A stretch of DNA of 64,000 nt from Actinomadura fibrosa (GTDB lineage Bacteria > Actinomycetota > Actinomycetes > Streptosporangiales > Streptosporangiaceae), in contig NZ_CAACUY010000006.1 of the NCBI RefSeq assembly GCF_900659615.1, positions 1-64,000 of the forward strand, in the 5' to 3' direction. The notes beneath the pieces are model-generated. The model was not told the origin of the DNA and ran no database searches. It saw only the letters and a list, made by a program, of their open reading frames with translations. The first letter of the stretch is position 1. Every line of letters starts with the position of its first letter. Both the position numbers and the translations under genes were made by a program. Shown piece after piece: positions 7,436 to 64,000 of the stretch.

Positions 7436-10400
7436 TTGTCCCCGAAGCTCAGCGTTGTCGTCCCGTTCCACAACACCGAGGAGTACCTCCGGGAATGCCT
7501 GGAGTCGCTGGCCGGGCAGTCCTTCCGCGACCTGGAAGTGATCATGGTGGACGACGGGTCCACCGACAACGGCGCGGTGATCGCCAAGGAGCTGTGCGAG
7601 CGCGACGAGCGCTTCCGGCTGGTGGTGCGGGAGAACGAGGGGCCCGGGCCGGCGCGCAACGCGGGGGTGCGGCAGGCGAGCGGCGAGTACCTGGCCTTCG
7701 CGGACGCGGACGACACGGTCGACCGGGAGGCGTACGCGCGGCTGGTCGGGTCGCTGGAGCGGACGGGGTCCGACATCGCGTGCGGGAACGTCGAGCGGTT
7801 CGACGGCGACCGGACGTGGCAGTCGGTGCTGCACGAGGGCGTGTTCGCCGAGGCGCGCCCGAAGACGCACGTGTCGCGGTACGCGCTGCTCATCCGGGAC
7901 CGGACGCCGTGGAACAAGGTGTACCGGCGGGAGTTCTGGAAGCGCGCGGAGCTGGAATTCCCGGCGGGTTTCTACGAGGATCCGCCGGTGACGGCGAAGG
8001 CGCACGCGATGGCCGGGTCCGTGGACGTTCTGAGTGACACGGTCTATTACTGGCGGAAGCGTCCCGGGTCCATCACGGAGGACCGTTACGCATGGGACAA
8101 CATCTCCCAGCGCATCAATTCCGCGAAGGTGGTCAGGGACGGGCTGGCCGACTACGCGCCGAATCTGCTGGCCGCCTATGACGAGCACGTCCTGGTGGAC
8201 GTGGAGTTGCGGGTGCTGCTGGAGGCCCTGCCGAGGACGGACGACGCGCGCCGCGAGGAGCTCCTCGGGATGGGCGCGGACCTCGCGGAGGGGCTGAACG
8301 CCCGTGTGCTGAAGCGGCTTCCGGCGTTGCAGCGGCTGCAACTGCATCTGCTGTGCCGGCGGATGCTCCCGGAGCTGCTGGAGGTGCTGCGGTTCGTCCA
8401 GTTGGGGATGCCGGTGCAGACGCCTCGGGTGCGGCGGGGGCTGCGGTCCCGCTGGTACGCGGAGTACCCGTTCTTCGAGGACGAGGAGCGGGGCGTCCCG
8501 TCGCACGTGTACGACGTGACGGAGGAGCTGACGCCGGTCGCGGCGATCGACCGGGTGGAGTGGGCGGACGACGGGCGGCTCCGCATCGAGGGGCACGCCT
8601 ACATCCGGCATCTGGACTCCTCCACCGAGGACGGGTCGCGGATCCGGGTGTGGCTGCTGGCGTCGAACCGGCGGGGCCTGATGCGGGTGCCGGTCCGGCG
8701 GGTGCGGCGGCCGGACGTGACGGCGCGGTCGCGGCAGCCGGTGGTGTCCTACGACTGGTCGGGGTTCGTCGCGGAGCTGGACCCGTCCGCGCTGAAGATC
8801 TTCGGGCGGTGGCGGGACGTCGACTGGATCCCGTGCGTGGAGATCGTGAACCGGGGGGTGCGGCGGCGCCGGACGTTCGGCAACCCGAACCTGACCAACC
8901 GGCAGTGGCCCGCCGAGCGGGAGTGCGCGCCGGGCGTGCTCGTGCAGGGCGTCGCGGGCAAGCGGCGGTTCGTGCTCCAGGTGCGGCGGACGGCGGCGGC
9001 GGTCACGGGCTGCGGGCTGGACGGCGACGAGGTGTGGCTGGAGGGCTGGTGCCGGGCGCCGCTGGGTACGGAGCCGCAGGTCACGGCGACGCCGCGGGTC
9101 GGCAGGGCGACGGTGACCGGGCCGGTCGAGCCGGCGCCGGCGCCGCAGGCCGTGGAGGCGCCGGCGGCGTCCCGGACGGTCGGGTACGCGGCCGGGGAGA
9201 TCGCGAACGCGCTGGCGAGCGGCGGTGACACGGTCGTCTTCCGGGCGCGGCTGCCGGTGGCGGCGCTGGCGCGCCGCGAGGGCGACTGGGAGGTGGCGCT
9301 GCCCGGCGGGGTCAGGCCGCATCTGGAGGAGGACGCGGCGGGCGCGCTGTTCCCGATCCCCGGCGGGCAGCTGGAGATCGCCCGGACGCGCCGCAGCACG
9401 CTGCGGATCGTGGTGCGGGGGCGATCGCCGGTGGTGGACGAGGTCCGCTGGTCGCCGGACGGGACGCTGCGGCTGTCGGGGGCGTGCCCCGACGCGGCGG
9501 GGCGCCCGGCGGCGCTGGTGCTGCGGCGCCGGAGGTCCAGCGAGGAGCACACGGTCCCGCTGCGCTGGGACGGCGACCGGTTCACCGCGTCGTTCGCGCC
9601 GTCGCGGATGCCGGTGCTGGGGATGGCGCGGCCGCTCGTCGCGGGGCGGTGGGACGTGCTGGCGCCGCTCGGCGGGCGGGAGCACCCGGTCGTGGTGCGC
9701 CGCCATTCGCTGCGGGACCTGCCGGAGCCGCAGGAGACCGGCCTGCACCGGGTCGGTGTGCGGGTGCGGCTGACCGACCAGCTCGTCCTGCGGGTGGAGA
9801 CGGCGCTGGACGACGACGAGCGCGGCCCGTACGCGCAGAGCAGGCTCCGCTCGGGGCACTACCGGCGGCACCTGAACCTGCCGGTCCGCGAGATGGCCGT
9901 GTTCGACGCGTACAAGGGCCGCCAGTACTCGTGCAACCCGCGGGGCGTCTACGACGAGCTGCGCCGCCGCGGGACGGAGCTGGACTGCGTCTGGGTGACC
10001 GACAACGGCCAGTTCGGCAGGCCGGCGGGGGCCCGGACGGTCCTCGCGGGCACGCGGGAGCACTACGAGGCCCTGGCCCGCGCCCGGTACCTGTTCGGCA
10101 ACTGGACGCAGCAGCGGTGGTTCGCCAAGCGCGAGGACCAGACGTACGTGCAGTGCTGGCACGGGACGCCGCTGAAGAAGCTCGGCTACGACGTCAAGGC
10201 GATGCCGTACAAGCGCACCGAGGGCCACAACTGGATGGAGCACGACGTCCCGCAGTGGGACGTGCTGCTGGCGCAGAACGCGTTCTCGGTGCCGCTGTTC
10301 CGGCGGGCGTTCGGCTACGAGGGGGAGATCCTCGAAAGCGGGTATCCGCGCAACGACGTCCTGAACAGCCCGCACCGGGACGAGATCGCGGCGGCGGTGC

Positions 10401-61023: not shown

Positions 61024-62328
61024 CTACAGGACGGCGGCCAGCTCCCGCGCCCCAGGCACCCGCCGATGCTGCTGCACGAGTTGAACGGCCACGTTGCGGA
61101 TCGAGGTCCGGTCCCGGACCTCACTGGGCGCCTGCTGATGGGCTTCCAGCAGCCGCGCGATCGCCTGCTCGGCCCAGCCCCGCTGGACCAAGGCGCGGGC
61201 CATGTCGGTGTGCAGCCGCGCGCGCCGCTCAACGGTGTCGAATTGCTCGGGCCGCAGCCGCTCACCGGCGGCGATCGCGGCGCCGGCGTCGCCCAGGCCC
61301 CAGTACACCCCGACGCGGTACAGCTCGATTTGGGCGGGGGTGATGCGAAACGGCGCGTCCGGGGTCGGCGCGGCGGGCATCCGTGCCGGTAGCCGCGTGG
61401 CGGCTTTGCGGGCCTCGGCCATCATCTCCAGCGCGTCCGCGCGCCGGTTGGCCAGGGCCGCGTTGTACCCGGTTGTGCAGAGCGTTTGAGCGTAAGCGGC
61501 CGCCTGTGCCGGGGTGGTCAGGCCGGTGCGCTCCAGCTGTTCCACGGCCCGCAGGGTGACGTGCTGCGCGACCACCTGGCGGCCCTCATGGCGCAGCACG
61601 ATCCCCAGCGATCTGGCCGCCGCCGCCTGAGCGACGGGGTCCTCGGAACGCTCGGCGTACAGCACCGCCCGGTCGGCGGTGATGCGGGACTGCTCCCGGG
61701 CGCCGACCTTGTTGAGCGCGTCGGCCGCCAAGTCGTACACGCCCGCGACCAGCACCCAGGTGTCCGGCTCGTCGGGCGCGTCGCCGGCGGCCTGGTGGGC
61801 GTCGGCCAGCAGCGCAGGCAGCCCGGTCACCAGCTCGCGCAGCGCCCCGCTGTCGAACAGGGTCCGGAAGCGGCGCAGGCGAGTGGCGAGTTGCTCGCGT
61901 GTGATGGGTCCGGCCGCGTCCGGGGTCAGCGCCAGCGCGTCGTCTAGACGGGTCAGTGCCGCCACCGGCACGGCGGCCAGCCCGGCGGCGAGCAACGAAC
62001 GTCGGCGCATCGGATCCTCCTGGACCACCGGAGCCACTGTGGTGTCCACCGTAACCTTCGGCCGCGGGCTGACGCCGAGCAACGCGGCGGCCAGGAGTGC
62101 AGGCGGCATCTCGATGGCCTCGGCGACCGCCCGGATCTTCGCCACGTGCAGACCGGTCTTGCCCTGCTCCAACCGGCTGATGGTGGCGGCCGAGTAGCAC
62201 GCGGCTCGGCCTAGGTCGGCCTGCCGCCAACCGCGTCGCTCCCGTGCGAGACGGATCACCTCACCCACGTTCCCGGCGTCGATCAGCGACCTCACCACAG
62301 CACCGTGCCACCACGGGTCCGTCATCAC
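61024..62328 (-). CDS. XRE-family regulator with TPR-like domain
   Basis: 434 residues. Helix-turn-helix at about 20-75 (VIRLARERRGWRQADLGRAACYSAATISRLEQGK), a linker with a Tat-like RRRSLLAAGLAAVPVAALTRL stretch, and a C-terminal TPR-like helical region. It is divergent from a RiPP precursor gene and probably controls it. The same protein type is often found beside actinomycete peptide clusters. Confidence 0.88.
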   Translation of the reverse strand: MMTDPWWHGAVVRSLIDAGNVGEVIRLARERRGWRQADLGRAACYSAATISRLEQGKTGLHVAKIRAVAEAIEMPPALLAAALLGVSPRPKVTVDTTVAPVVQEDPMRRRSLLAAGLAAVPVAALTRLDDALALTPDAAGPITREQLATRLRRFRTLFDSGALRELVTGLPALLADAHQAAGDAPDEPDTWVLVAGVYDLAADALNKVGAREQSRITADRAVLYAERSEDPVAQAAAARSLGIVLRHEGRQVVAQHVTLRAVEQLERTGLTTPAQAAAYAQTLCTTGYNAALANRRADALEMMAEARKAATRLPARMPAAPTPDAPFRITPAQIELYRVGVYWGLGDAGAAIAAGERLRPEQFDTVERRARLHTDMARALVQRGWAEQAIARLLEAHQQAPSEVRDRTSIRNVAVQLVQQHRRVPGARELAAVL

Positions 62329-62397: not shown

Positions 62398-62433
62398 GTG
62401 CAGATCCTGCACACGCGCGCACGTCCTGCACAC
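62398..62433. promoter_or_regulatory. Candidate operator between XRE and RiPP genes
   Basis: GTGCAG-ATC-CTGCAC is a perfect palindrome (62398-62412). TCCTGCACAC repeats directly at 62405 and 62424, 19 nt apart. Confidence 0.45.
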
Positions 62434-62515: not shown

Positions 62516-62764
62516 ATGCTCCCCACTCCCGCCACCACGGCGACGATCACCCAGCCGCCGGCGCTGCGCCCCTACGGGCTCCGTTTCGCCCAGCGGCTGT
62601 CCGCCGCGGTCACCCAGACGCCACCGGACCTGACCTACTGCCCGCGTCGGCAGCAGACCCTGGCCGGTGGCAGTCCGCTCGCCGCTCAGCCCGGCCTGCT
62701 GCGCGCCTACTCGGTCACCTGGGGCACCACCGATCGGGACAACAAGACCGACGACAACGGCTGA
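62516..62764 (+). CDS. ATP-grasp-modified RiPP precursor (graspetide-like)
   Basis: 82 residues, ATG after GGAAGGA. The leader has ALRPYGLRFAQRLSAAV, close to the RP(W/Y)GLR motif of the putative ATP-grasp-modified RiPP family (TIGR04186). The C-terminal part YSVTWGTTDRDNKTDDNG mixes Thr with Asp, as needed for omega-ester or amide cross-links made by ATP-grasp enzymes. It lies 13 nt before an ATP-grasp gene. Confidence 0.82.
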   Translation: MLPTPATTATITQPPALRPYGLRFAQRLSAAVTQTPPDLTYCPRRQQTLAGGSPLAAQPGLLRAYSVTWGTTDRDNKTDDNG

Positions 62765-62777
62765 CTCGGAGGGCCAG

Positions 62778-63743
62778 ATGAACCGCGGCACGGTGCTCAT
62801 CCTCACCGACACCACCGACCACACCGTCGACCTCATCGTCCACGAGCTCCAGCAGCGCGAGGCGACCGTCGTCCGCCTGGACCCCGGCGCTGGACCCATC
62901 CGGATCGACGCCCGCCTGGACGGCGACCGGTGGCGCGGCCACGTCGGCGATGAGCACCGCGCTGCCCGCCTGGAGGAGGTGACCTCGGTGCTGTGGCGCT
63001 GGCCCGGCCTGCCCACCGGGCACCCCGCCATTACCGACCCGGCCGCCCGCGCCTGGGCCGCCCGCGAGGACCTCCTGGCGCTGCGCGGCATCCTGCGCAC
63101 GCTGCCCGCCCGCTGGATCAGCCACCCCGCCGCGATCGCCACCGCAGGCGACAAGGCGGGGCAGCTCGTCACCGCCCGCCGCTGCGGGCTCGAAGTCCCC
63201 GACACCCTCATCACCACCAGCGGCGCCCCCGTCCCTGCCTGAGCGTACGGCCGCGCCATCCTCTACAAGGCCTTCCACGCCCAGGGCGCCGACCCTGAAT
63301 CAATGGTCACCGCGAGCGCTACCGACGCCGCCGCGCTACCCGCCGAACTGGCCGCCGCCTCCACCTTCCAGCCGATCGTGCGGGGCACCAGCATCCGTCT
63401 CACCGCCGTCGGCCCGCACCTGTTCGCCGTCCGCATCACCGGCACCGACCTGCTCGACTGGCGGCCCGTCCAGGACCGCCTGACCTTCACCGCGACCGAA
63501 ATCCCGCCCGCCATCGCCACCGGCGTGCACGCGTTCCTGCGTGCCTACGGCCTGGAGTACGGGGCCTTCGACTTCATCGACCCCGGCCCCGGTCGTCCGT
63601 GGAGCTTCCTGGAGTGCAATCCATCCGGCATGTACGGGATGGTGGAGATCCAGTCCGGCCTGCGCATCACCGCGGCGATCGCCGACCGGCTCCTGACCCC
63701 ACTCAACCAGGGCTCGGCCGGATGCTCGATCGGTTCGCCGTGA
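62778..63743 (+). pseudogene. ATP-grasp RiPP maturase split by in-frame TGA
   Basis: Both halves share one frame: MNRGTVLILTDTTDHTVDLI to SGAPVPA, then TGA at 63240-63242, then AYGRAILYKAFHAQGADPES on to 63743. Without the stop the protein is about 321 residues, the family's usual size (ATP-grasp ribosomal peptide maturase, SAV_5884-like). The second half holds the ATP-grasp core (YKAFHAQG, LEYGAFDFIDPGPGRPWSFLECNPSGMYGMVE). The stop falls in the linker between the N-terminal and ATP-grasp domains. A CGA to TGA change would explain it. The second half lacks its own ribosome site, so this is probably a recent pseudogene. Confidence 0.8.
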
Positions 63744-64000
63744 CGGACCGTGCCGACGCTGACACAGTGGGACCCATGGGCCTCTACTTCTTCCCTCCAT
63801 CGCTGAAGCTGCGCGCCACCTTCCTCGCTGCGCAGGCCGAGTACGCCGAGCACGACGGCCGTCCCGACGCCGACGGCCTCACCCTCGCCGACCTGACCGA
63901 AGGCACGCTGCGCAGCTACGTCGAGGGCATGGCGGCCGGGACGTTCCCCCGCGACGGCATCAGGATCGGCGTCGCGGGGACCGAGCTGTGGTGGTGCGAG
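63740..64000 (+). CDS. GNAT-like acetyltransferase, N-terminal fragment
   Basis: Runs off the right edge. GTG 63740 overlaps the maturase TGA (GTGA), so it is coupled; ATG 63776 is also possible. The 87 visible residues (FPPSLKLRATFLAAQAEYAEHDGRP, then DGIRIGVAGTELWWCE) resemble the N-terminus of a GNAT family acetyltransferase. It might modify the peptide or be an unrelated neighbour. Confidence 0.6.
   Translation, partial: MTDRADADTVGPMGLYFFPPSLKLRATFLAAQAEYAEHDGRPDADGLTLADLTEGTLRSYVEGMAAGTFPRDGIRIGVAGTELWWCE

Follow-up and report, generated by a model that had tools for sequence, protein, structure and literature searches.

A recent nonsense mutation has likely silenced the ATP-grasp synthetase of a graspetide cassette in the soil actinomycete Actinomadura fibrosa that is composed of an XRE-type regulator, a precursor peptide, the synthetase itself and a GNAT acetyltransferase. 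The window, i.e. the whole stretch of 64,000 nucleotides analyzed here, is the start of a contig of 133,599 bases in a draft genome of 10.9 Mb (568 contigs, 97.5% complete). Recent loss is supported by the presence of a single stop in an otherwise intact frame, by the signature of purifying selection on the gene and by the independent damage that the gene has suffered in the two nearest relatives. Judged from its sequence, the locus is a broken member of a graspetide cluster family, provided that the TGA is neither translated through nor a wrong base. The break is ordinary in kind, one of several separate losses of this synthetase, here by a probably inactivating nonsense mutation.

The cassette opens with a divergently transcribed, intact XRE-type regulator of 434 residues (61024–62328, reverse strand), which matches the HTH_31 model PF13560 with 48.9 bits (cut-off 27). 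It is followed on the forward strand by the precursor gene (62516–62764) and, after a gap of only 13 bases, by the ATP-grasp synthetase gene (62778–63743). The intact GNAT acetyltransferase gene downstream (180 residues; PF00583, 24.0 bits, cut-off 20.7) starts at 63776 on the same strand and runs past the end of the window at 64000 to contig position 64318. Precursor and synthetase are flanked by a regulator and an acetyltransferase and not by a methyltransferase: no isoaspartyl O-methyltransferase was recognized by eye in the lists of open reading frames around the cassette, which reached about 12 kb into locus L004. The gap between regulator and precursor contains an operator-like palindrome, GTGCAG-N3-CTGCAC (62398–62412), which is the only exact match within the window, where four other sites occur with one mismatch. 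Read by eye, the palindrome is kept with changed spacer bases in the corresponding gaps of Actinomadura xylanilytica KACC 20219 and A. atramentaria and with one mismatch in that of a further relative, G020. It is likely the operator of the XRE regulator.

The precursor is an intact open reading frame of 82 residues that starts with ATG, carries the leader motif ALRPYGLRFAQ and ends in the Thr/Asp/Lys core AYSVTWGTTDRDNKTDDNG. This agrees with a preliminary description of the same DNA, which had noted an intact precursor with an RPYGLRF leader and a core rich in Thr and Asp. The match to the NCBIfam precursor model TIGR04186 is weak (15.2 bits against a cut-off of 25, E 0.017). Relatives keep the position of the gene as well as leader and core; the core is common to G020, A. 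xylanilytica, A. violacea and Spirillospora albida and, for the most part, to A. alba. The locus accordingly has a short precursor, whose leader is conserved and whose core is rich in Thr/Ser/Lys and Asp/Glu, next to an ATP-grasp synthetase of the MvdC/MvdD/GRASP_SAV_5884 kind. What the locus lacks of a graspetide cluster is a synthetase that is translated whole.

The frame of the synthetase gene is open from 62778 to 63743 except for exactly one internal stop, the TGA at 63240–63242 (forward strand), which is codon 155. When this codon is read through, the protein matches TIGR04187 over positions 1–311 of 312 with 245 bits, below the strict cut-off of 350 for that model. Both the single in-frame TGA and a full length equal to the family norm had been claimed in the preliminary description and are borne out here, whereas its placement of the stop between the domains of the enzyme does not hold. 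The match to the pre-ATP-grasp domain (PF21068) already ends at residue 118, and the stop lies inside the ATP-grasp fold, between two lysines, Lys126 and Lys164, that are invariant in 28 of 28 aligned proteins (the protein of the window and those of 27 out of 59 loci). We take these residues to be the ATP-binding lysines of the ATP-grasp family. When the read-through protein is modeled with AlphaFold2 (mean pLDDT 91.2), residue 155 ends the helix formed by residues 151–155, and the stop thus falls just before the strand 161–164, at the end of which Lys164 is located. The closest solved structure, by sequence profile as well as by fold (E 4.6e-28), is the graspetide synthetase PruB (9bou), which argues against a chance open reading frame; further fold matches are AMdnB, MdnC, CdnC and PsnB.

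By analogy with working relatives, the PYGL leader would bind the ATP-grasp enzyme, which would activate Asp side chains of the core and join them to Thr or Lys as lactones or lactams, and the GNAT protein may acetylate the product or protect the producer. In the window, translation of the synthetase would end after 154 residues. As this point lies within the ATP-grasp fold, neither an active enzyme nor a cross-linked peptide is to be expected. A backup from elsewhere in the genome is not apparent. The whole genome yields one match to TIGR04187 and hence no second maturase of this family, and a RimK search led to three other places, of which the strongest, the one that was classified, is LysX-like; supply of a second maturase in trans found no support in these searches.

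Homologues were searched in 65 genomes of the genus and in 341 genomes of the family (E at most 1e-50). Nine loci, including that of the window, make up the clade, and its full-length synthetases are at least 43% identical to the protein of the window. The gene is a single open frame in six of the nine copies, namely those of A. violacea, S. albida, A. alba, A. atramentaria, A. rupiterrae and a Streptosporangiaceae metagenome-assembled genome. The other three are broken in three different ways: by the TGA in the window, by a TAG in A. xylanilytica at the column of Trp228, which is Trp in all other copies, and in G020 by a frameshift near residue 90 combined with the loss of the 3' end, unrelated sequence following after approximately residue 250. 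At this last locus (L070 on contig C7), the unrelated sequence takes the place of the 3' part of the maturase gene and of the GNAT gene. A comparison of the stop region among relatives, which had been suggested as a check, shows Trp at the column of the window's stop in all eight other copies. That both stops replace Trp is unremarkable because many of the single transitions that create a stop start from Trp codons, 14 of 22 such routes in the frame of the window and 14 of 28 in that of A. xylanilytica.

In the protein tree, the broken copies form a group of three (bootstrap 95), with the window next to G020 (bootstrap 100). As the lesions differ, the three losses are regarded as separate events. 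It is possible that an earlier loss of activity, invisible in the sequences, was shared by all three, but the selection results given below speak against this. The neighbors of the synthetase were followed with tblastn, using the proteins of the window against the loci of the eight relatives. A homologue of the XRE regulator adjoins the cassette in G020, A. xylanilytica, A. atramentaria and A. rupiterrae, and a GNAT homologue does so in A. xylanilytica, S. albida, A. alba, A. atramentaria and the metagenome-assembled genome. Neither was found beside the cassette of A. violacea, and no GNAT homologue beside those of G020 and A. rupiterrae. This patchy distribution indicates that the cassette is held together loosely; the methyltransferase typical of graspimiditides is not part of it.

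Elsewhere in the family, too, stop codons occasionally abolish the synthetase. Among the matches listed in the family-wide search (338 genomes), at least three contain an in-frame stop. These three synthetases belong to other genera and carry one stop each, at the column of Lys126 in G151 (locus L210) and at codon 49 of the respective gene in both G274 (L211) and G199 (L212), the codon in G199 being aligned with Trp52 of the window's protein. Precursor-like frames upstream of these three synthetases still look open by eye. Among 71 matches spanning at least 250 of the 312 model positions, as counted by eye, an internal stop occurs in two of six from the clade and in none of the 65 others. The corresponding p value of 0.006, calculated by hand, rises to 0.07 when the window's own copy is left out, and for this reason no enrichment is claimed for the clade. 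Decayed fragments of the synthetase are also seen outside the clade. In another genome of the genus (locus L076; G042:C161, 10342–11271), the two outer parts of a synthetase are encoded on the forward strand and its middle third (model positions 113–231) on the reverse strand, as if inverted in place; this may represent a rearrangement, a switch or an assembly fault.

Selection was assessed with a codon model of the GY94 type (F3x4) on a fixed tree of the nine copies. On the branch leading to the window, omega is 0.121 compared to 0.106 for the rest of the tree; the data reject omega = 1 (LRT 13.4) and, at the 5% level, any value from 0.3 upwards. The part of the gene before the stop yields an omega of 0.138 (LRT 8.7 against omega = 1) and the part after it an omega of 0.06, with a weak rejection of omega = 1 (LRT 4.5). 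The branches of A. xylanilytica (omega 0.072, LRT 49.7) and G020 (omega 0.19, LRT 6.2) are constrained likewise. Purifying selection thus acted on the synthetase of the window until recently. If evolution has been neutral since the break, the upper bound on omega would roughly imply that at most about one fifth of the branch has elapsed thereafter. Substitutions at otherwise fixed columns were counted as well. The copy of the window departs at 2 of 71 such columns, which is no more than in the intact copies of A. violacea and S. albida (2 of 72 each), and a long decay preceding the stop was rejected on these grounds. The remaining counts are 0 of 69 for A. xylanilytica, 0 of 51 for G020, 0 of 70 for A. 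alba, 4 of 74 for A. rupiterrae, 10 of 80 for A. atramentaria and 13 of 83 for the metagenome-assembled genome. Codon models for the GNAT and XRE genes were saturated and were not used.

An intact precursor, regulator and acetyltransferase fit a break too recent for the rest of the cassette to have decayed. On the other hand, the conserved core and the constraint after the stop would be expected just as well if the TGA were read through or if it were a base error, the selection test for the region after the stop is weak, and the preservation of the core wherever the synthetase is broken, in three genomes out of three, goes beyond what simple decay needs. An error of base calling or assembly at 63240–63242, which would leave gene and pathway intact, could be sought in a draft of this many contigs; a single base change would suffice, and the constraint on the window's copy resembles that on intact copies. 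We nevertheless consider it unlikely, since this gene is damaged in the nearest relatives as well, each time in a different way, stops interrupt synthetases in other genera too, and none of the neighboring genes examined beside the synthetase is broken. Bacterial tRNA-Trp is known to decode UGA as a near-cognate codon, and Trp is the very residue found at this column in relatives; together with the constraint on the downstream half, this would suit read-through at a rate that is useful for making some full-length enzyme, for example by the ordinary tRNA-Trp. Such read-through appears distinctly improbable, given that no structure follows the UGA (fold z +1.43, 191 of 200 shuffled sequences being at least as stable) and that the lesions in A. 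xylanilytica, G020, G151, G274 and G199 are of other kinds or at other places. Because the stops of other family members fall elsewhere, there is no shared recoding site. A suppressor tRNA was sought with ARAGORN among all 71 tRNA matches of the genome, read in 60 loci plus that of tRNA-Sec (tRNA-Sec is listed twice because two loci overlap), and was rejected: both tRNA-Trp have a CCA anticodon, and no UCA, CUA or UUA anticodon occurs other than the UCA of tRNA-Sec.

The existence of this tRNA-Sec (77.6 bits, confirmed by ARAGORN) is the one point in favor of UGA encoding selenocysteine at codon 155. A selenoprotein would call for a hairpin after the codon and for Cys in relatives, both of which are absent, the column being occupied by Trp, so that this reading was rejected as next to negligible. 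The tRNA-Sec gene itself is located at contig positions 9133–9224 of the same genome (G000:C116; locus L209), where nearby frames look by eye like selD and fdhD. A split enzyme assembled from two separately made halves is very improbable as well. Each half does match TIGR04187 separately (positions 1–146 and 159–311), and an ATG is available at 63303, which opens the only frame usable by restart after the stop (63303–63743, forward strand, 146 residues). Since no ATG, GTG or TTG is present between the stop and this position, however, a second protein started there would miss the strand that holds the invariant Lys164, and the stop separates two invariant lysines of a single fold. Furthermore, two separate genes are not the rule in relatives: of the eight other copies, six consist of a single open frame, two are otherwise broken and none is a clean gene pair. 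The preliminary description had left the choice between a recently dead pathway, read-through and a split enzyme; recent death is the best supported of these, read-through gained no positive support and the split enzyme is contradicted.

Of more general interest is the question why the precursor and the regulator stay where the maturase is broken. The three genomes in which the synthetase is broken (those of the window, A. xylanilytica and G020) all have an intact precursor with a nearly unchanged core and an intact divergent XRE regulator, even in G020 with its loss of the synthetase 3' end and the GNAT gene. It is conceivable, but we rate the chance as small, that the precursor keeps a job without the maturase, the unmodified peptide serving as a signal or acting on the regulator of its own cassette. 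In that case, the system would not end with the maturase but would go over from a modified product to a plain signal peptide. Young breaks are the simplest explanation. Omega of the precursor is higher on the three tips with a broken maturase than elsewhere (0.185 versus 0.009, LRT 10.2), although the other tips are long and possibly saturated, which may inflate the difference; the maturase exhibits no such split in the same six taxa (0.108 versus 0.070, LRT 1.8). This leans towards young breaks and counts mildly against a function of the precursor that is independent of the maturase.

The silenced cluster and its relatives add a small graspetide family with a GNAT protein and without a methyltransferase in Actinomadura and relatives. 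Its intact copies, among them those of A. violacea, S. albida and A. alba, offer a better prospect of finding the peptide than the cluster of the window does. Repeated loss of the maturase next to a conserved precursor offers a natural test for the use of unmodified precursors, and it is a warning for genome mining, where a live pathway should not be deduced from an intact precursor. Neither this cassette nor a graspetide synthetase containing a stop is described in the titles and abstract openings that literature searches listed among openly licensed PMC papers.

The closest known kind are the actinobacterial graspetide clusters defined by TIGR04187 (GRASP_SAV_5884) and TIGR04186, with PruB of Streptomyces coelicolor (9bou) as a relative of solved structure. 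The cassette shares with them the synthetase family, the fold, the leader motif and the order of precursor followed by ATP-grasp gene. It differs in that its synthetase is interrupted by a stop and scores below the curated cut-offs, and in the presence of a GNAT gene and the lack of a methyltransferase gene. Branch 8 graspetide loci with a naturally truncated ATP-grasp protein, as outlined in a Makarova-type phylogenomic survey (PMC8939145), likewise have an N-terminal piece only. There, truncation is described as typical of the branch, whereas six of the nine copies compared here have their full length, and the window retains the half downstream of the stop in conserved form. An acetyltransferase gene beside the synthetase is reminiscent of graspetide group 7 of Carter et al. 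(PMC13097080), a comparison based on the description of the group; according to that article, acetyltransferases are often found in this group, and a role in self-resistance is suggested for such co-occurring genes. Finally, the graspimiditides (group 13 of Carter et al.), exemplified by the fuscimiditide system ThfA/ThfB/ThfM, also combine a precursor with a single ATP-grasp enzyme, and the links of fuscimiditide are Thr-Asp esters (PMC12291112). Graspimiditides are almost always accompanied by an isoaspartyl methyltransferase (PMC13097080). The cassette described here departs from them both in its core sequence and in its gene content, no such methyltransferase being recognized among the open reading frames around it.
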